The notes under the pieces were generated by a model. The model was not told where the DNA came from. It was given only the letters and a program-made list of their open reading frames with translations, and did no database searches. The translations under genes were made by a program, and so were the position numbers. 55,949 bases of DNA from Desulfobacterales bacterium RIFOXYA12_FULL_46_15. Lineage in GTDB: Bacteria; Desulfobacterota; Desulfobacteria; Desulfobacterales; Desulfobacteraceae. Below, piece by piece: positions 5,136 to 13,403 of the stretch (its first letter is position 1; every line of letters starts with the position of its first letter). The stretch is from positions 1-55,949 of the forward strand of contig MGTJ01000209.1 in the NCBI GenBank assembly GCA_001799395.1, written 5' to 3'.

Positions 5136-5212
<77 letters not shown>

Positions 5213-5290: not shown

Positions 5291-6010
5291 TTATTTGTCA
5301 GCCATCATTCTCCCAAGGGATTTCAGCGCCTGGTATTTGATTTTGACAAAATGCGCTTTCATGGCTTTGCAGGCTTCTTCTGCATCATGGGAGACAACGG
5401 CATCGAATATATTCCGGTGTTGTGATCCCACAGGGTCTTCGGACTGGATAAAAAGAAGACCGGCCCGGTATTTGAGATATAAAAGATCGAACAGATACCT
5501 GAGCATCTGTTCCTGGATTTTCCGGCGTGACAGTGAGGCCAGGGTCAGGTGGAATTCTTTGTCCTTAAGCAGGCATTCATTCAGATACGATTCCTCATCT
5601 GATTTTTCCCCGGTATGCAGAAGCACCCGTAGATTTTTAATCCCGTCTTCATTAAGGTTGGCAATCACATCCGGGAGAAGGGAAACCTCGATCAGCTCGC
5701 GCATATCATAAATCTCCTGGACTTCCTGAATGCTCATAGGTTCCGTGGAATACCCCTTGTTTGGCTCATAGCGGACAATTCCCTGGAATTCAAGATGCTT
5801 TAAGGCCTGGATGATGGGTGTAAGGCTCATGCCGAGGCGATCTGCCAACTGGCGGTATGATATCTTCCGGCCAGGCGAGATCTCGTTGGTAAAAAGAATC
5901 TGTTTAATGCCTTCATAGGCAATCTGTGTGTGGCTGGCATCCGGTGTGACGGTTTTTTTCCGGTTTTTTACTGGCACTGATTCTCTCCCTTTACGGTATT
6001 TTGTAATCAT
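5291..6010 (-). CDS. GntR-family transcriptional regulator, FCD (FadR-like) subgroup
   Basis: DNA-binding regulator. The winged helix-turn-helix covers about residues 25-90: ISYRQLADRLGMSLTPIIQALKHLE is the recognition segment, and it ends in the wing EPNKGYST. It is followed by an all-helical FCD ligand-binding domain with the usual metal/ligand histidines (FHLTLA, SQHRNIFDAV). Length is 239 residues from the ATG at 6010; an upstream TTG at 6034 gives 8 more residues, and neither start has a convincing ribosome site. FCD regulators usually repress an adjacent catabolic or transport operon until an organic acid binds. It is divergent from the 6.4-11.6 kb operon across an A+T-rich spacer with a strong palindrome, so that operon is its likely target. 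Confidence 0.88.
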   Translation of the reverse strand: MITKYRKGRESVPVKNRKKTVTPDASHTQIAYEGIKQILFTNEISPGRKISYRQLADRLGMSLTPIIQALKHLEFQGIVRYEPNKGYSTEPMSIQEVQEIYDMRELIEVSLLPDVIANLNEDGIKNLRVLLHTGEKSDEESYLNECLLKDKEFHLTLASLSRRKIQEQMLRYLFDLLYLKYRAGLLFIQSEDPVGSQHRNIFDAVVSHDAEEACKAMKAHFVKIKYQALKSLGRMMADK

Positions 6011-6362
6011 TTTTTTTGTTCTTAATCTTTTCAAATACAGATTTAATTAAATTTTAAAATAGACTTAATTCCCATGATTGTCAATCTGCAAAAATATTTT
6101 AACTTCATAATATACTGAATTTAAAAAAATAAATGCTATTCATAGAAAAGATTTTACAAATGGAAATAAAAAAAGCTTGACATGCAAATGAGTAATGAAT
6201 TAAGTTTTTATCAAATTTAATTAAATTCTATGAATATTGAATTTATAATTTTTATAAATTCAATTAAATTAAATAGTTGTATTATAAATAATTTGATTAA
6301 ATATATTTTTAACATTAATAAGCGCATCATCTCAGGATGCCGGGGATGAGAAGGGAATAAAA
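6011..6362. promoter_or_regulatory. A+T-rich divergent control region of the GntR / ThDP-enzyme operon
   Basis: This roughly 350-bp stretch holds no gene. It is extremely A+T-rich, with several copies of an AATTAAATT-like word, a TTTAATTAAA palindrome near 6215-6224, and a possible -35 TTGACA at 6177 without a clear -10. A 13-bp-arm palindrome is listed separately. GGGATGAGAAGGG just before 6363 provides the ribosome site of the first operon gene. Confidence 0.55.
6236..6264. promoter_or_regulatory. Perfect palindrome, likely GntR operator
   Basis: Arms ATTGAATTTATAA and TTATAAATTCAAT, 13 bp each with no mismatch, are separated by TTT. It lies midway between the divergent gntR and the operon start. 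A dyad of this kind fits a dimeric GntR regulator. The sequence is too A+T-rich and too far from a stop codon to be a terminator. Confidence 0.5.
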
Positions 6363-8114
6363 ATGAAAGGCGCAGATGTAATTGTCAAAATGCTGGAACA
6401 ATATGATGTCAACGTCATATTCGGTGTGCCCGGGGATACCAGTATCCCTTTATATGAAGCGCTTCATGATTCAGGCGGGGATCTGCGGCATGTGATGGCA
6501 AGAGATGAACGGTCGGCATCATTTATGGCAGATGCCTATGCCAGGATTTCTCACAAACCCGGAATCTGTGAATGTCCCAGCGGCGCCGGTGCCCTGTATT
6601 CACTCCCCGGGGTGGCAGAGGCCGATGCCTCATCAGTGCCGGTGATCCTTTTTACATCTGACAACCCGATGAACGGAGAAGGGAAAAAGACTATTACCGA
6701 GCTTGATTGTCAGCGGTTGTTTGAACCGGTTACCAAATGGTCCTGTCTGGTCAAGGATATTTCACGGATACCTGAAGTGATCCGGCGGGCATTCCGGATT
6801 GCCACAACAGGACGTCCCGGTGCAGTTCACCTGGCAATCCCCCAGGAATGCCTGAAAGGAGAATACCGGGAAACTGGCCATGACATCTATGGCGAACCGG
6901 AATGCTGCATTTATCCGGCTTTCCGGACCCGGGGAAGCCGGGCAGGGCTTGAACGCCTTGCCGCCCTGCTGCTGGATAAAAGCAAAAAAACCGTTATCAT
7001 CGCGGGCGGCGGGGCCAAACATTCCCAGGCAGAGGAGGAAATCGGGGCATTGGCGGAATTTATGGGAATCCCTGTGGTGACCACGATTTCCGGCCAAGGT
7101 ATCATGCCGGACCACCACCCCCTGGCACTGGGGGTTATCGGCGATAACGGCTTTCATCCCCATGCGATCCGGGCGGTGGAAGAGAGCGACACCCTGTTTT
7201 ATATCGGGTGCAAGATCGGGTCGGTGTCCACAATCAAATGGACCCTTCCGTCTTTTAAGCCTGAAAGAAATATCCTCCAGGTGGATCTTGACCCGGTCAT
7301 GCTGGGCAATAATTATCGAAACAGGATCAGTGTGGCAGGGGATGCCAGGCTGGTTTTAAAGGATTTGCTGGTGCTTCTGGACAAGGCCGGAACCATGGAT
7401 GGTCCAAAAGAGTGGGTAACGGATCTGAACCGTGAACGGTGTCAGTTCTGGGAGGAATCCGAAGCGGATTTCCAGTCCCGGTCCCTCCCCATCAAACCCC
7501 AGCGCGTGATTTCGAGCATCAACAGATATCTCGGCCCCGGGTCCATTGTCATTGCCGATGCAGGCACCCCGACCCCCTATATTACCCGGTACCTGCGGTT
7601 ATGTGACAACAGGTCCACATTTATTATCCCCCGGGCATTCGGCGGGCTCGGCTATGCCATCCCAGCCCTTGCCGGGGCTTATTTTGCCCGGCCCGATGCT
7701 GTGCTGGTAGGCATGTTTGGTGACGGCAGCCTCGGCATGTCGGCCGGTGAACTGGAGACCCTGGTCCGGCTCAATATCCGGGCAGTCCTGATTCATTTTA
7801 ACAATGCCTGTTTCGGGTGGATCAAAGCGCTTCAGGCCATTCATGCCCGGGATAAATTTTTCTCCGTTGATTTCTTGACCGGGGACCCGGCAAAAGTGGC
7901 GCAAGGGTTTGGAATGGAGGCGCATCGGATCACTTCTCCCGATATGCTGGACAGTGCCTTGGAAAAAGCCTTTTCAACAGACGGGCCTGTTTTTCTGGAT
8001 GTTGTTACGGAATCCGAGGTCACGGCGCTTCCGCCGGTTTATTCCTGGATTCATAAACTCAACCAGAAGACCAACGGGTCTTTGGAAAAAACATCATTGA
8101 AAAATCTGATATGA
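6363..8114 (+). CDS. Thiamine diphosphate-dependent enzyme, acetolactate synthase large-subunit-like
   Basis: 583-residue protein with the IlvB-type domain order: N-terminal pyrimidine-binding domain with catalytic Glu49 (RDERSASF; the Glu that activates ThDP), central Rossmann-like domain (about 190-330), and C-terminal PP-binding domain with GDG at 453-455 and NN at 480-481, the metal/ThDP motif. Such enzymes decarboxylate a 2-keto acid or transfer an acyl/aldehyde unit. No adjacent small subunit is present, and partner genes are a flavoprotein, a NIF3-like protein and a permease-like protein, so branched-chain synthesis is unlikely. A catabolic lyase, decarboxylase or sulfoacetaldehyde acetyltransferase-like role is possible. 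The substrate cannot be read from sequence. Confidence 0.85.
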   Translation: MKGADVIVKMLEQYDVNVIFGVPGDTSIPLYEALHDSGGDLRHVMARDERSASFMADAYARISHKPGICECPSGAGALYSLPGVAEADASSVPVILFTSDNPMNGEGKKTITELDCQRLFEPVTKWSCLVKDISRIPEVIRRAFRIATTGRPGAVHLAIPQECLKGEYRETGHDIYGEPECCIYPAFRTRGSRAGLERLAALLLDKSKKTVIIAGGGAKHSQAEEEIGALAEFMGIPVVTTISGQGIMPDHHPLALGVIGDNGFHPHAIRAVEESDTLFYIGCKIGSVSTIKWTLPSFKPERNILQVDLDPVMLGNNYRNRISVAGDARLVLKDLLVLLDKAGTMDGPKEWVTDLNRERCQFWEESEADFQSRSLPIKPQRVISSINRYLGPGSIVIADAGTPTPYITRYLRLCDNRSTFIIPRAFGGLGYAIPALAGAYFARPDAVLVGMFGDGSLGMSAGELETLVRLNIRAVLIHFNNACFGWIKALQAIHARDKFFSVDFLTGDPAKVAQGFGMEAHRITSPDMLDSALEKAFSTDGPVFLDVVTESEVTALPPVYSWIHKLNQKTNGSLEKTSLKNLI

Positions 8115-8141
8115 AATAAAGTTCTGAAAGGAGAAAAAGAC

Positions 8142-9413
8142 ATGGATATTGTGGTTATCGGAGGTGGCTGGGCCGGTTGTGCCGCAGCGCTTGCAGCAAA
8201 GAAACAGGGTGCACGGGTGACGCTGGCGGAACGGACTGACATGCTTTTAGGGACCGGCCTGGTCGGAGGCATCATGCGCAATAACGGACGCTTTACGGCA
8301 GCCGAAGAACTCATCGCCATGGGGGGAGGAGAGCTTCTATCGCTGACCGACAGGCATTTGCTCCACAAGAACATCAATTTCCCCGGCCACAACCATGCCT
8401 GCCTCTATAATGTCGGCACCATCGAACCTGCTGTCCGGCAGTTGCTTCTGGATCAAGGCGTGACCGTCCTGATGAACACCAGGATGACAGAGGTGACGGT
8501 AAAAAACGGCTGGATTGAAGCGGTTGAAGGGAAAAGCGGTCATGAACCGGTTGAACTTAAAGGGGATGTCTTTATTGACACCACAGGCACGGCAGGTCCG
8601 CCGGCATTGTGCACCAAATATGGGAAAGGCTGCGCCATGTGCATCCTCAGATGTCATTCCTTTGGGGGCCGTGTCAGCATTGCCGGAAAAGCCGGGGTAA
8701 GGGAGATGACCGGACAAAAACCGGGCCAGACCGGTGCAATGAGCGGTTCGTGCAAGCTGCACAAGGGGTCCTTGTCACCTGAGATCCGCCACCGGCTTGA
8801 AGAAGACGGGGTAGCTGTCATACCGGTGCCAAAGTCCCTCAGGACCAGCGGCAAGCTGTCCATGAAAGCCTGCCAGCAATACGCCATAGACGAATTTGAA
8901 GAAAATGTAATCCTGCTTGATACCGGTCATGCAAAGCTCATGAGCCCGTTTTTTCCTTTGGAATTGCTAAGGAAGATTCCCGGGCTTGAAAATGCGAGAT
9001 ATGAAGATCCTTATGCAGGGGGAAAAGGAAATTCCGTCCGTTTCCTGGCCATGTCCCCCCGGGACAACCGGCTCAAGGTGGAAGGGGTCAAAAACCTTTT
9101 CTGTGCAGGGGAAAAGGCAGGGCTTCTTGTCGGGCATACGGAAGCTGTCTGTACCGGGACCCTGGCCGGTTTCAATGCGGCCCTAAGTTCCGGAGCTCCC
9201 ATTGTTCTGCCGGAAACCACAGTGATAGGCGATACCGTCAGTCATGTCCGGGAACAGATGACGGACCGCCAACGGCTGGATTTGAAATTCACTTTTTCAG
9301 GATCGGTATTGTTTGCACGAATGAAAGAAAAAGGGCTGTACACAACAGATGTTGACATCATCAGGAAGAGAGTGTCAGATGCGGGTTTGACCAATGTGTT
9401 CCTGAACCGTTAA
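8142..9413 (+). CDS. FAD-dependent oxidoreductase (FAD_oxidored-type)
   Basis: Flavoprotein of unknown substrate. The N-terminal Rossmann motif is VVIGGGWAGCAAALAA (residues 4-19). A C-terminal FAD-contact segment begins NLFCAGEKAGLLVGHTEA, like that of MnmG/TrmFO and fumarate-reductase-type flavoproteins. Between them lies a cysteine-rich stretch, GKGCAMCILRC, which could bind metal or form a redox pair. Length is 423 residues; no signal peptide, so it is cytoplasmic. AAAGGAG stands upstream, 27 bp after the ThDP gene. It probably oxidises or reduces the product or substrate of the neighbouring ThDP enzyme, but this is inferred from position only. Confidence 0.82.
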   Translation: MDIVVIGGGWAGCAAALAAKKQGARVTLAERTDMLLGTGLVGGIMRNNGRFTAAEELIAMGGGELLSLTDRHLLHKNINFPGHNHACLYNVGTIEPAVRQLLLDQGVTVLMNTRMTEVTVKNGWIEAVEGKSGHEPVELKGDVFIDTTGTAGPPALCTKYGKGCAMCILRCHSFGGRVSIAGKAGVREMTGQKPGQTGAMSGSCKLHKGSLSPEIRHRLEEDGVAVIPVPKSLRTSGKLSMKACQQYAIDEFEENVILLDTGHAKLMSPFFPLELLRKIPGLENARYEDPYAGGKGNSVRFLAMSPRDNRLKVEGVKNLFCAGEKAGLLVGHTEAVCTGTLAGFNAALSSGAPIVLPETTVIGDTVSHVREQMTDRQRLDLKFTFSGSVLFARMKEKGLYTTDVDIIRKRVSDAGLTNVFLNR

Positions 9414-9444
9414 AACCATTAAAACCGTTAAAAAGGAGTTGAAA

Positions 9445-10452
9445 ATGGCAGAACAAATTACAGTAAAAGATCTGGTAACGGCATTGGATACCATTACCGG
9501 CGGCCGGGTGATCCGTCCGGCAGGGTCTCCGGCCGGAAAAAATCCTTTTATCGTCACCAAATCCTCAGATATTCCGGGAAAAGCCGTCACCGAGACGCCG
9601 GGCCTGGTAGTGGGTGATCCGGACATGCCGGTCAAAAAACTGGCTGTCATGATGACTCTCACGGAAAGCGCCATTGAACTGGCTGGAGCATCAGGGGTGG
9701 ATGCCATGGTAGCCCACCACCCGGTGGCTGACGCAGCCAATTCAGGGGGGGTTCTTTTAAGAACCTATCTTGGCCTTTATAACCTTGCTGTATTGGAACT
9801 TCATGAGGCATTCCACGGCCTTCACCCGGGAATTGCCTATCTCCACGGACATGATGCCAGTTTTGTCGATATCAAATACAGCAATATCCCTGGGAACATC
9901 CTGTTTGTCGGCAAGACCCTTGAAGGTGTCCGTACCCTGGGCGACATGCTGGCAAGGATTGAAGGGTTCATGGACCTCAATACAGAGGCAAGGCTCCTGG
10001 AAAGCGAAAAACAGATACGGAACTGCGCAGACCTGGTCGAAACCGCAATCCTTACCAGGGGTGTCATCCTTGAAGGCAATCCTGGAAAAAAGGCCAGCAA
10101 GGTCATGCACATTTTTCCCCACACCGGGTTTACACCAGTCCACATGGAACGGGCATTTCATGAACACCCTGGGGTGGATACGGTCCTGGCCACCATCAGC
10201 CGGGTATTTCCAGGGCATGAGCTGGTCGCAAAAGCCAGGGATCTCGGACTCAATTTTGTGTGCGGCAACTCCCATGCCCTGGAGATCCTGGAAAACGGCC
10301 TTCCCCTGGCAAGGGCCATCAGCATTCTTTTACCCGGTCTGGAAGTGGTGATTTTCAAAGAGCGGATGACCGGCATTCCCATAGATGCATTCGGTGGTCC
10401 CGATATACAGAAATATGCCCGTAAAATGGCAGAGGAATATCTGGTAAAATAA
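9445..10452 (+). CDS. NIF3-like metal-dependent protein
   Basis: 335-residue protein resembling the NIF3/YbgI/YqfO family (often named GTP cyclohydrolase 1 type 2), whose members bind a dinuclear metal site. Seen: the family's VDAMVAHHP motif near residue 90, and a late GNSHALEILENG segment that matches the usual second His...Glu ligand pair. The ATG at 9445 is preceded by AAAGGAG at 6-7 nt; the in-frame TTG at 9439 is too close to that site. Homology is recognisable but divergent, and the long insertion between ligand motifs differs from short NIF3 proteins. In this operon it may be a metal-dependent hydrolase for the pathway intermediate. Confidence 0.65.
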   Translation: MAEQITVKDLVTALDTITGGRVIRPAGSPAGKNPFIVTKSSDIPGKAVTETPGLVVGDPDMPVKKLAVMMTLTESAIELAGASGVDAMVAHHPVADAANSGGVLLRTYLGLYNLAVLELHEAFHGLHPGIAYLHGHDASFVDIKYSNIPGNILFVGKTLEGVRTLGDMLARIEGFMDLNTEARLLESEKQIRNCADLVETAILTRGVILEGNPGKKASKVMHIFPHTGFTPVHMERAFHEHPGVDTVLATISRVFPGHELVAKARDLGLNFVCGNSHALEILENGLPLARAISILLPGLEVVIFKERMTGIPIDAFGGPDIQKYARKMAEEYLVK

Positions 10453-10473
10453 AAATCTAAAAAGGAGAAAAAA

Positions 10474-11556
10474 ATGAATGAAGCTGTTGCTGCAATAAAA
10501 CCAAGAAGAGGGATTCGAAAGATCGAGATCATCGGCATGATCCTGGTCGGTCTTTCCTTATTAGGGCTCATTGTTAATCCCGGGTTCATCTCAGGGATTT
10601 TTGATGCCATGCTGAATAAAGCCTTCCCTATCATGGTGCAGGTGTTTCTTACGGGGAAAGTCGGTGTGGCCATCATCATCAGCGTATTGATCGGCCGTAT
10701 TTTAGAGCGCTGCGGTTTTACCGACGCATTGATGAGGCTTCTCTTACCTGTCACGCGGCTCATCAAAATTAATTCAGCGGTTCTTGTACCGGCAGTTTAC
10801 AATATCCTCGGGGATATTAATGCTGCCGGGAGAATTGCAGGCCCCATCCTGGTGAAAGCAGGGGCTACCAAGGATGAACAGAAGATAGCCATCTGTACCA
10901 TGGTCCAGTCCCAGCAATCCTTTTCCACCTTCATGTTCTGCATCGTTGCCCTAACCGCAATCAAGGCCAAGGTATTTGTCATTATCCTGATTTCGGTATT
11001 TGCCCCTCTCTTGATTGTTCCAGCCCTTCTCAAACTGACCATCTGGAGGGATACAAAAGCTGTATCGCTGGAAGATATGCCATCCTTTACCCCAGCCACC
11101 GGAATTCTGCCCACGGTATTCGGGGCAGCCCGGGAAGGTGCCGAACTTCTCTTTTTGCTCATTATCCCGGCCGTGGGAGTGATCTTTGCCATAATCGGAG
11201 CGATAGATTATATAGGCCTGTGGAAACCCATTGAAAGCGGCCTGACTTCCCTCTTATCCGCCTTGTCCATTGATCCGAAATCAGGAATCGTAACCATCCT
11301 GGCCTCTCCTACGCTGGCTACAGCCCAGTTGAAAGATGTGGCCACCACCCTTTCCCCGGAACTGGTGATCGGTTCTGTGGTCCTTGCCGCATCCGGCTTC
11401 CCCCTTTCCGTTATTCTGGGGCAGATTCCGGCAATCTGGTCGGATGCAACCGATTTAAACCATCTGGAAGCCATGGGAGCCGCTGTCCTGGGAGCTGTCA
11501 TGCGGCTTTTGACAGCCGGTTTGGTCGCCACAGTGCTGACCCGGTTCCTGCTGTAA
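10474..11556 (+). CDS. Nucleoside-recognition (Gate) domain membrane protein, probable transporter
   Basis: 360-residue integral membrane protein with about 8-9 hydrophobic segments, for example residues 21-38, 60-80, 140-180 and 225-250. Two related halves each resemble the Gate domain of SpmA/SpmB, YjiH and nucleoside transporters: the first contains VYNILGDINAAGRIAGP, the second GIVTILASPTLATAQL. AAAAGGAG precedes the ATG, 21 bp after the NIF3-like gene, and a strong terminator follows. It is the only membrane protein of the operon, so import or export of the pathway substrate is the obvious proposal. Function of this subfamily is not established. Confidence 0.75.
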   Translation: MNEAVAAIKPRRGIRKIEIIGMILVGLSLLGLIVNPGFISGIFDAMLNKAFPIMVQVFLTGKVGVAIIISVLIGRILERCGFTDALMRLLLPVTRLIKINSAVLVPAVYNILGDINAAGRIAGPILVKAGATKDEQKIAICTMVQSQQSFSTFMFCIVALTAIKAKVFVIILISVFAPLLIVPALLKLTIWRDTKAVSLEDMPSFTPATGILPTVFGAAREGAELLFLLIIPAVGVIFAIIGAIDYIGLWKPIESGLTSLLSALSIDPKSGIVTILASPTLATAQLKDVATTLSPELVIGSVVLAASGFPLSVILGQIPAIWSDATDLNHLEAMGAAVLGAVMRLLTAGLVATVLTRFLL

Positions 11557-11570
11557 TCATCGTTTGAATA

Positions 11571-11606
11571 AAAACAGCCTTACCGGTTGCTGTGTAAGGC
11601 TGTTTT
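11571..11606 (+). terminator. Rho-independent terminator of the 6.4-11.6 kb operon
   Basis: Perfect 13-bp arms AAAACAGCCTTAC/GTAAGGCTGTTTT with a 10-nt loop. It lies 14 bp after the stop codon. The A- and T-rich ends may let it work in both directions. Confidence 0.92.
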
Positions 11607-11720: not shown

Positions 11721-13403
11721 GTGATTATGATGAAATACCGTGCTGTTTTGTGTTTTCTTGTCATTTTTTGTGTAGCGTTTCCGTTTCATCTTTTTGCAGA
11801 TGAAAAAAGCACATTAAAGGATACTCTTAACAAGAGTGCAGACCCGGAAAAAGATGAAGCCTCCATTAAAATGCTGTTTTCTATCTCAGAACTGAAAAGA
11901 AGTCTGAGTCAGCGGATAACCGGGAAAAAGGCACTGCTTGAAAAAAGTACATCGGAAACCGAAAAAGCCGGTCTGGAATCTGAGATCGCAAAACTGGATG
12001 AGCAGTTTAATGATGCAAGAGCAGATTTTGAACGGATTGCAACAGGTGTTGATATCGGCCTGTTCCTTGGGAAGAAGGAGGAAACCTTTGACTGGAAGGA
12101 GGAGCTTGTCTCCCTTGTTGAACCCGGCATCAAAGAAATTAAGCGGATGACGGTCAATGCCAGGAATAAAACCAAACTTAAAGATGAAGTCGCCTATTAT
12201 GAAGATCTGGTTTCTATTGCCCGGAACGCTGTAAAAAATATTACTGAACTGATTGGTCAGACCGAGGACAGAGATGTCAAAAAAAATCTTGACTCCCTTC
12301 TGCCGGAGTGGAAGAGCATTGAAAAACAAATAACGAACAAACTTCATATTGCCAATATGCAGCTTTCTGAAGTGAACAACAAAGAGAAATCTCTTATTGA
12401 AAGTTCAGGGATTTCCATTAAGAAATTTTTCAGAACAAGGGGGCTCTATCTGGCCATTGCCGTCATTGCCTGCGTTCTGGCCCTTCTCTTACTCCGGCTG
12501 GGAGCAAGGCGTCTGATCAAGCTGATTCCAGGATACAATCTGGCATATAAACCCTTCCATATCCGGTTGTTTGACCTTCTGGCCAGGATTGCGGCCCTGT
12601 TTGTAACCTTGTTTGTCCTGGTCCTGGTATTTTATATTTTTGAGGATTGGGTTCTTTTAAGCTTATCCATTGTCTTTTTCCTGGGTCTTGGGTGGACGGT
12701 CAGAAATACGGTTCCCCGGTTCTGGAAACAGAGCTGCCTCATGCTCAATATCGGAGCTGTCCGGGAAGGGGAGCGGATGATTTACCTGGGGATTCCCTGG
12801 ATGGTGAAGAGCATCAATCTTTTCTGTGTGCTTGAAAATCCGGAGATGGAAGTGAGCCTCCGGCTGCCTATTGAGGCTTTGCAGGACCAGACTTCAAGAC
12901 CGTTTCATAAAAAAGAGCCCTGGTTTCCGTGCCGAAGAAACGACTGGGTCATCCTTTCCGACGGAACCTGGGGAAAGGTGAAAGGCCTCTCCCATGAAAT
13001 GGTTGAAATCGTTCAACCCGGCAGTGCTAGAAAAACGTATCAAACAGTTGATTTCCTTGCCCAGGCACCTTTGAACCTGTCAACAAATTTTACATTGAAA
13101 AGCATTTTCGGTTTAAGTTATGATCTCCAGAAAGACATTACAGGGAAAATTCCTGAAATTCTGACGGCACACATCAGGGAAGCGATTCAAAAGGAAGGAT
13201 ATGAAGAAGGTCTTATCCATCTCCAGGTGGATTTCCAGGCCGCAAACAGCTCTTCCCTGGACCTGGTCGTGATCGCTGATTTTAAAGGCGGGATGGCACC
13301 CCAGTATTACAAGCTGTCACGGGCCATCCAGAGGTGGTGTGTGGATGCATGCACTGCCAATAACTGGGAGATTCCCTTTCCCCAGCTTACAGTGCATCAT
13401 TAA
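11721..13403 (+). CDS. MscS-like membrane protein with periplasmic coiled coil
   Basis: 560 residues from a GTG preceded by AAAGGAG. An N-terminal signal sequence ends near LFADEKS; residues about 40-230 are charged and coiled-coil-rich, probably periplasmic. Three hydrophobic segments follow (about 240-262, 287-308, 311-330). After the third, a segment reading REGERMIYLG...VKSINLF resembles the MscS beta domain; about 75 residues later RRNDWVILSDGTWGKVKGL repeats the same pattern. The C-terminal about 100 residues resemble the MscS alpha/beta cage. This suggests a mechanosensitive-channel relative, although the Gly/Ala-rich pore helix is not evident. Its gene stands alone between two terminators. 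Confidence 0.7.
   Translation: MIMMKYRAVLCFLVIFCVAFPFHLFADEKSTLKDTLNKSADPEKDEASIKMLFSISELKRSLSQRITGKKALLEKSTSETEKAGLESEIAKLDEQFNDARADFERIATGVDIGLFLGKKEETFDWKEELVSLVEPGIKEIKRMTVNARNKTKLKDEVAYYEDLVSIARNAVKNITELIGQTEDRDVKKNLDSLLPEWKSIEKQITNKLHIANMQLSEVNNKEKSLIESSGISIKKFFRTRGLYLAIAVIACVLALLLLRLGARRLIKLIPGYNLAYKPFHIRLFDLLARIAALFVTLFVLVLVFYIFEDWVLLSLSIVFFLGLGWTVRNTVPRFWKQSCLMLNIGAVREGERMIYLGIPWMVKSINLFCVLENPEMEVSLRLPIEALQDQTSRPFHKKEPWFPCRRNDWVILSDGTWGKVKGLSHEMVEIVQPGSARKTYQTVDFLAQAPLNLSTNFTLKSIFGLSYDLQKDITGKIPEILTAHIREAIQKEGYEEGLIHLQVDFQAANSSSLDLVVIADFKGGMAPQYYKLSRAIQRWCVDACTANNWEIPFPQLTVHH

Follow-up and report, generated by a model that had tools for sequence, protein, structure and literature searches.

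The 55,949-nucleotide stretch of Desulfobacterales bacterium RIFOXYA12_FULL_46_15 analysed here (contig MGTJ01000209.1, G000:C209 in our numbering; "the window") contains a divergent FCD-type GntR regulator gene, four close plus-strand genes and then a hairpin. The four genes encode a thiamine diphosphate (ThDP) enzyme, a GidA-like flavoprotein with a flavin adenine dinucleotide (FAD) domain, a NIF3/DUF34-like protein and a Gate-like membrane protein. This layout is real, and the family labels attached to the genes in an original prediction, made from the letters alone, are mostly right. We tentatively favour the reading that the genes form an inducible operon for the import of an amino acid, or of an amine acid close to one, followed by its oxidation and by decarboxylation of the resulting 2-oxo acid. 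Amino-acid catabolism is preferred to the "organic acid or nucleoside" first proposed because of the gene neighbourhoods of relatives, which are decent but indirect evidence. The prediction also held that no described pathway combines these proteins; in agreement with this, no paper on the gene set was found in the open PubMed Central (PMC) literature.

Co-occurrence of the flavoprotein and the NIF3-like protein

In what follows "own phylum" is that of the window genome (G000), whose near relative Desulfobacula sp. S20.Bin121 carries the label Thermodesulfobacteriota, and "Bacillota" is the phylum of Phascolarctobacterium faecium (G395). At E<=1e-10, 4 of 395 own-phylum and 26 of 398 Bacillota genomes have the NIF3-like protein, and 29 of these 30 genomes also carry the flavoprotein (E cut-offs 1e-60 and 1e-100). 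In the own phylum the flavoprotein is present in 4/4 NIF3-positive against 13/391 other genomes (Fisher p=2e-6); in Bacillota, where the count takes in a second flavoprotein type, the figures are 25/26 against 87/372 (p=4e-14), shared descent being ignored in both tests. The grouping of the two genes is thus beyond chance and far above expectation in two phyla.

The nearest relative found is the Desulfobacula metagenome-assembled genome, whose shared proteins are 94-96% identical. The exact gene order was seen only in the window and in this genome, where it runs as GntR-ThDP-FAD-NIF3 up to a contig end (L006). The prediction would have been refuted by a scattered neighbourhood in relatives, and the outcome on this point is mixed: the four-gene order is not widespread, but two- and three-gene parts of it recur. 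The ThDP gene lies directly upstream of the flavoprotein gene in 4 of 17 flavoprotein-bearing own-phylum genomes (window, L008, L130 and L132) and also in L006; on this map some other loci are cut by contig ends, several end at the flavoprotein, and L135 and L142 have no flavoprotein cluster member. In Phascolarctobacterium faecium, FAD-NIF3-Gate stands beside an Asp/Glu racemase gene, the product of which scores 184.9 against a cut-off of 190 bits for cysteate racemase. Two own-phylum loci (L007 and L008) combine the flavoprotein with a membrane protein of 464 aa, a protein that resembles Usp (by eye; no family call) and a NIF3-like protein. The latter (L007:10493-11608 and L008:8608-9702) has in both cases a likely N-terminal signal peptide, judged by eye from a hydrophobic segment. 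In Bacillota the NIF3-like gene mostly precedes a Gate gene. Among all 30 loci with clustered NIF3 ORFs, the Gate gene is directly downstream on the same strand in 20 and within two genes in 23; of the seven loci with no nearby Gate gene, three are cut by contig ends. In L053 and L054 an amidohydrolase gene lies between the two (Pfam was run on the L054 copy).

Both terminal parts of the flavoprotein, N-terminal (FAD-binding) and C-terminal, match MnmG/GidA. The scores are, however, far below the equivalog cut-offs for MnmG (43.5 against 524.85 bits) and TrmFO (42.2 against 262 bits), and tRNA modification of the MnmG/TrmFO type was set aside. A further difference from these proteins is a cysteine pattern, C-x6-C-x2-C-x3-C, which sits outside the matched parts. 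The residues concerned (C157-x6-C164-x2-C167-x3-C171) and C321 are invariant in 17/17 aligned flavoproteins, and the pattern is found in 42/42 clustered flavoprotein ORFs (open reading frames). These cysteines may hold an iron-sulfur (Fe-S) or zinc centre.

The NIF3-like protein exceeds the PF01784 cut-off (28.7 against 23.4 bits), the match covering 45 residues only. Its structural model, built from three input sequences, is weak (pLDDT 52.6; TM 0.38-0.50 by query), but Foldseek recovered the NIF3 fold over the full length (7.3e-11, 335 alignment columns), and the 20 fold matches at E<=0.001, HcgD among them, belong to the NIF3 family, as identified in part by title. The "NIF3-like" label thus stands on a short sequence match and on fold support from a weak model. 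The protein is not a YbgI/SA1388 equivalog (TIGR00486, 27.6 against 130.55 bits); a canonical NIF3 is encoded elsewhere in the genome (256.4 bits). The HHP motif was predicted to be intact, and it is indeed kept, with HEAFHG, N-x-H-x2-E and His124, in 27/27 aligned sequences. This alignment used 27 of 31 clustered ORFs, those below 330 aa being dropped; the 31 exclude L006, a fragment cut by the end of its contig, and L062, which did not reach the threshold for clustering. His124 aligns with the ligand Asp of the canonical NIF3 of the same genome; hhalign aligned the first part of the proteins only, to residue 122, and the last two residues were placed by eye. According to passages of Reed et al. 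2021 (PMC8469502), NIF3/DUF34 proteins occur across superkingdoms, their annotated function is disputed, and their conserved dinuclear site consists of five His, one Glu and one Asp. In the window protein the HHP and the later His and Glu are kept, with His124 in place of the Asp. Compared with YbgI, YqfO, HcgD and XynX, it therefore shares the HHP motif and the fold matches but differs in having 335 aa, His124 for Asp and H-x2-E for H-x3-E (both partly by eye), in being mostly paired with a Gate gene and in co-occurring with one flavoprotein family.

In the same paper (PMC8469502) DUF34 proteins are suggested to insert metals or to serve as metal chaperones, and links to Fe-S proteins are described. 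Applied to the window, with the NIF3-like protein maturing the cysteine centre of the flavoprotein instead of acting as a pathway enzyme, this is the main rival for the NIF3 step, although we consider it unlikely. The invariant cysteines, the flavoprotein in 29 of 30 NIF3-positive genomes and HcgD among the fold matches all agree with it. The flavoprotein nevertheless occurs with no NIF3-like protein in 13 of 17 positive own-phylum and 87 of 112 Bacillota genomes (second type counted), the two NIF3-like proteins with a likely signal peptide (by eye) accompany flavoproteins that start directly at the Rossmann motif, and the amidohydrolase gene intervenes between NIF3 and Gate in two genomes.

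The Gate-like protein has 6 hydrophobic segments (Kyte-Doolittle). Its PF07670 score of 20.1 is below the cut-off of 29.6 bits, so of the "Gate permease" label the membrane protein stands, and the family assignment falls short of the threshold. Gate proteins such as SpmA and SpmB have a link to sporulation. They would suit an arrangement of two functions under one promoter, in which NIF3-Gate would serve transport or the envelope on its own and ThDP-FAD would be a separate catabolic pair, and the separation of NIF3-Gate from the flavoprotein in most mapped Bacillota genomes is in keeping with it. We judge this improbable, given the FAD-NIF3-Gate run in Phascolarctobacterium, the flavoprotein and NIF3 within one gene run in two further own-phylum genomes and the co-occurrence of the two across genomes. 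As a side observation, frequent neighbours of NIF3-Gate in Bacillota (L040, L041, L045-L048 and others) are an MpsC-like protein of ~120 aa (the one tested scored 18.4 bits, below the cut-off of 23) and a ~160-aa protein (no Pfam match in two tested).

The ThDP enzyme and the neighbourhoods of its relatives

The ThDP enzyme has three ThDP domains (Pfam), Glu49 and the GDG motif, features it shares with IlvB, Gcl, PoxB and Oxc. Its best curated models are acetolactate synthases (378.7 bits), but it falls below the cut-off of every model among the 25 best of 55. For TIGR00118 (acetolactate synthase large subunit) the score is about 371.4-371.7 against 538.35 bits, and the Xsc model TIGR03457 (cut-off 676.4) is absent among these 25, the lowest of which scores 240.2 bits. 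The enzyme had been described as IlvB-like with no small subunit, and none was found among the neighbouring genes tested (short overlapping ORFs lay outside that test). A true IlvB is present elsewhere in the genome (840.9 bits), and the role of biosynthetic acetolactate synthase was set aside on this ground. In a tree of 19 sequences, drawn with no Xsc, the window enzyme falls in a clade of 10 (support 100/99), apart from IlvB, IlvI, Gcl, PoxB and Oxc of E. coli and from the acetolactate synthase of its own genome; the placement of the long branches, namely Oxc, PoxB, Gcl, L113 and two paralogs from the window genome, is uncertain. G-D-T and R-D-E-R-S-A are observed in 10/10 clade members, against G-G and R-H-E in the three acetolactate synthases of the tree. 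Tight clustering with characterised acetolactate synthases or Xsc would have counted against the prediction; the enzyme does not group with the acetolactate synthases compared here. An acetolactate-synthase-like carboligase that removes pyruvate or 2-oxobutyrate made by the flavoprotein would fit the best models, Glu49 and GDG, but is made improbable by the sub-threshold scores, the separate clade with RDERSA for R-H-E in its ten members, the IlvB elsewhere and the lack of a small-subunit gene among the neighbours tested.

Most of the plasmid-borne relatives of the ThDP enzyme that were examined lie beside amino-acid genes. A match to the enzyme is present in 82 plasmid records, of which 25 were listed and 9 had their neighbourhoods examined. 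Amino-acid ABC transporter genes are present in 7 of the 9 and a TAXI-TRAP transporter in one; an Asp/Glu racemase gene occurs in 5, with an enolase-superfamily gene instead in two. The flavoproteins in these neighbourhoods are of the DAO type in 3/3 tested, and for two of them the best NCBIfam model is D-amino-acid dehydrogenase (179.8 and 185.4, below the cut-off of 383). These proteobacterial operons belong to the same ThDP clade (39-52% identical, four in the tree) and likewise have transporter and flavoprotein neighbours. They differ from the window operon in the DAO-type flavoprotein, where tested, in their LysR regulators and in having no NIF3 or Gate gene listed; five carry the racemase, and their records assign no substrate. 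A plasmid search with the flavoprotein itself gave one record, a Tepidibacter plasmid.

The genome also holds a paralogous operon (L186, G000:C155:1-8092) that runs to the contig end and comprises a divergent GntR gene, a ThDP enzyme 62.5% identical to that of the window, a TAXI-TRAP transporter, a flavoprotein and a small protein that looks like a ferredoxin by eye and has no family match. For this flavoprotein the top model is ThiO (glycine oxidase), with sarcosine oxidase beta and D-amino-acid dehydrogenase also among the best; none of the three scores reaches its cut-off. In G097 an aldehyde dehydrogenase gene precedes ThDP-FAD. The small genome G415 has 16 flavoprotein matches (loci L143-L155), one of which adjoins a ThDP N-domain protein (L147). 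Decarboxylases are again found in the flavoprotein neighbourhood here: UbiD-type genes, Pfam-confirmed in 3/3 tested, lie ~3-6 kb from at least three of the flavoproteins (L146, L149 and L153), though not adjacent to them. The nucleoside-like substrate of the original prediction is not supported, since the neighbours of the ThDP relatives point, with one exception (Variovorax, below), to amino acids; it was set aside, as the Gate family name alone suggests it.

Locus layout and candidate operator

The coordinates are collected in the table. The five genes are placed as predicted, with AGGAG or AAGGGA-type sites (by eye) before the starts of the four plus-strand genes and gaps of 27, 31 and 21 nt between them (ThDP/FAD/NIF3/Gate), and a single inducible-looking unit is supported. 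The start of the NIF3-like gene was taken as ATG 9445; the longest ORF would begin at TTG 9439. The arms of the hairpin (11571-11583 and 11594-11606) enclose a loop of 10 nt, above the limit of 8 of the hairpin scan, which explains its absence from that scan's list. The perfect 13-nt arms claimed for it are there; its role as a terminator is no more than plausible, because the T run consists of four bases inside the arm.

Table. Features of the operon and its flanks (window positions)
Feature	Position	Strand	Remarks
tRNA-Met (CAT)	5136-5212		just outside regulator gene
FCD-type GntR regulator	5291..6034	-	divergent from operon; PF07729 66.8 bits, PF00392 35.8 bits
AT-rich promoter/operator region	6035..6362		20% GC; candidate operator repeats
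ThDP enzyme	6363..8114	+	GDT ... RDERSA signature; Glu49 and GDG present
GidA-like flavoprotein (FAD)	8142..9413	+	PF01134 120.3 bits
NIF3/DUF34-like protein, 335 aa	9445..10452	+	HHP kept; His124 at canonical Asp place
Gate-like integral membrane protein	10474..11556	+	PF07670 20.1 bits, below cut-off
Hairpin, probable terminator	11571..11606		perfect 13-nt arms, short T run
560-aa protein with hydrophobic stretches (by eye)	11721-13403		after hairpin; no Pfam match at 1e-5

The FCD and GntR helix-turn-helix domains of the regulator both exceed their Pfam cut-offs, and the protein is 40% identical to the GntR of the paralogous operon. The window contains the sequence ATTTRATTAAAT three times only, always in the promoter/operator region (at 6041, 6215 and 6291). 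Against these three places, 3000 dinucleotide shuffles of the region gave a mean of 0.017, and no shuffle had two or more. One copy each is also found upstream of the Desulfobacula operon and of the paralogous operon. The motif was picked after the repeats had been seen, and it is thus a candidate operator only. A phosphonate operon was set aside (phnR model 92.8 against a cut-off of 271.5 bits).

Proposed pathway and a second operon in Bacillota

In many Bacillota the flavoprotein belongs to a second operon of varying gene content (L098:3091-12632; relatives L095-L102, L156, L157, L161 and L162). It encodes DUF6917, Rid, a 488-aa protein of the pyridoxal phosphate (PLP) type (weak matches), the flavoprotein, a 461-aa membrane protein matching 0 Pfam families, an FCD regulator, a small protein of 82 aa, a 605-aa protein that begins with a vitamin B12 domain and a KamB reactivase (254.9 against 210 bits). 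In 13 of 20 mapped Bacillota loci the flavoprotein gene is immediately preceded by the PLP-type gene. By eye, the operon occupies the same chromosomal stretch in several genomes. The B12 domain of the 605-aa protein resembles lysine 5,6-aminomutase beta, and the remainder had no match in a PDB sequence search. The operon shares this domain and the KamB reactivase with the lysine 5,6- and ornithine 4,5-aminomutase systems, but differs in the N-terminal position of the B12 domain and in its DUF6917, Rid, PLP-type and flavoprotein genes.

The B12 protein was sought in 80 of 113 genomes, all chosen for the flavoprotein or NIF3: the 26 NIF3-positive ones and the first 54, by handle number, of 87 that are NIF3-negative and flavoprotein-positive. 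It was found in 32, namely 23/26 NIF3-positive against 9/54 NIF3-negative genomes (p=6e-10, shared descent ignored). The window genome gave only a 97-residue match to the B12 domain (2.8e-11). As this match is limited to the domain, we do not claim the B12 protein for the window.

For the window operon we propose that the FCD-GntR regulator would control uptake and breakdown of an amino acid or related amine acid. The Gate-like protein would import the substrate, and the flavoprotein would oxidise it to an imino acid and hence to the 2-oxo acid, electrons passing through FAD and perhaps through a metal or Fe-S centre on the four invariant cysteines. The ThDP enzyme would then decarboxylate the 2-oxo acid to an aldehyde, or transfer the aldehyde unit. 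The NIF3-like protein may be a two-metal hydrolase acting on a ring, an amide or an imine, either ahead of the oxidation or following it. Import, oxidation and ThDP action on the keto product had been predicted, and are supported as a working model. In its favour we count the transporters, racemases and DAO-type flavoproteins of the plasmid neighbourhoods, the paralogous operon on C155, the Phascolarctobacterium racemase and the G097 aldehyde dehydrogenase. The Rid, PLP-type, B12 and KamB genes of the second operon, the L147 paralog and the NIF3-FAD co-occurrence are counted with them.

Several observations weigh on the other side. No racemase, transaminase or aldehyde dehydrogenase gene is present within the window operon, which in lacking the racemase also differs from the racemase-oxidase-ThDP operon type. 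The flavoprotein is GidA-like and not DAO-like, so that its link to amino acids is by neighbourhood only, and AlphaFold gave no fold for it (pLDDT 30.2; three input sequences). At L130 the flavoprotein accompanies an XDH-like gene and, by eye, a uronate isomerase. A Variovorax ThDP relative, 40% identical, stands with a tripartite-tricarboxylate-transporter gene, AtuA, DUF4387, RraA and a divergent GntR gene, and with no amino-acid genes. Finally, of 6 genomes searched for the B12 protein, 5 were negative at E<=1e-10, namely Desulfobacula, Phascolarctobacterium and three relatives from the own phylum; with only the domain match in the window genome, the two flavoprotein contexts need not share a substrate.

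A broader reading, which we regard as possible but unlikely, would see in the window one branch of a system for amino-acid degradation that has yet to be described. At its core would stand a new kind of GidA-like amino-acid dehydrogenase, rich in cysteine and possibly an Fe-S protein, served by its own NIF3-like two-metal hydrolase with an altered site. This core would feed a new ThDP decarboxylase in the own phylum and, in Bacillota, an undescribed aminomutase that depends on B12 and starts with its B12 domain. No paper on the second operon (DUF6917-Rid-PLP-flavoprotein-B12) was found in the open PMC literature. Parts of the gene set recur in other bacteria beside a vitamin-B12 enzyme operon, and since that operon itself recurs and has no paper found, knowing the substrate of one branch would aid the assignment of the two. 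A NIF3 clade tied to one flavoprotein and one transporter family offers a concrete pathway in which to test whether such a protein acts as a hydrolase or as a metal insertase.

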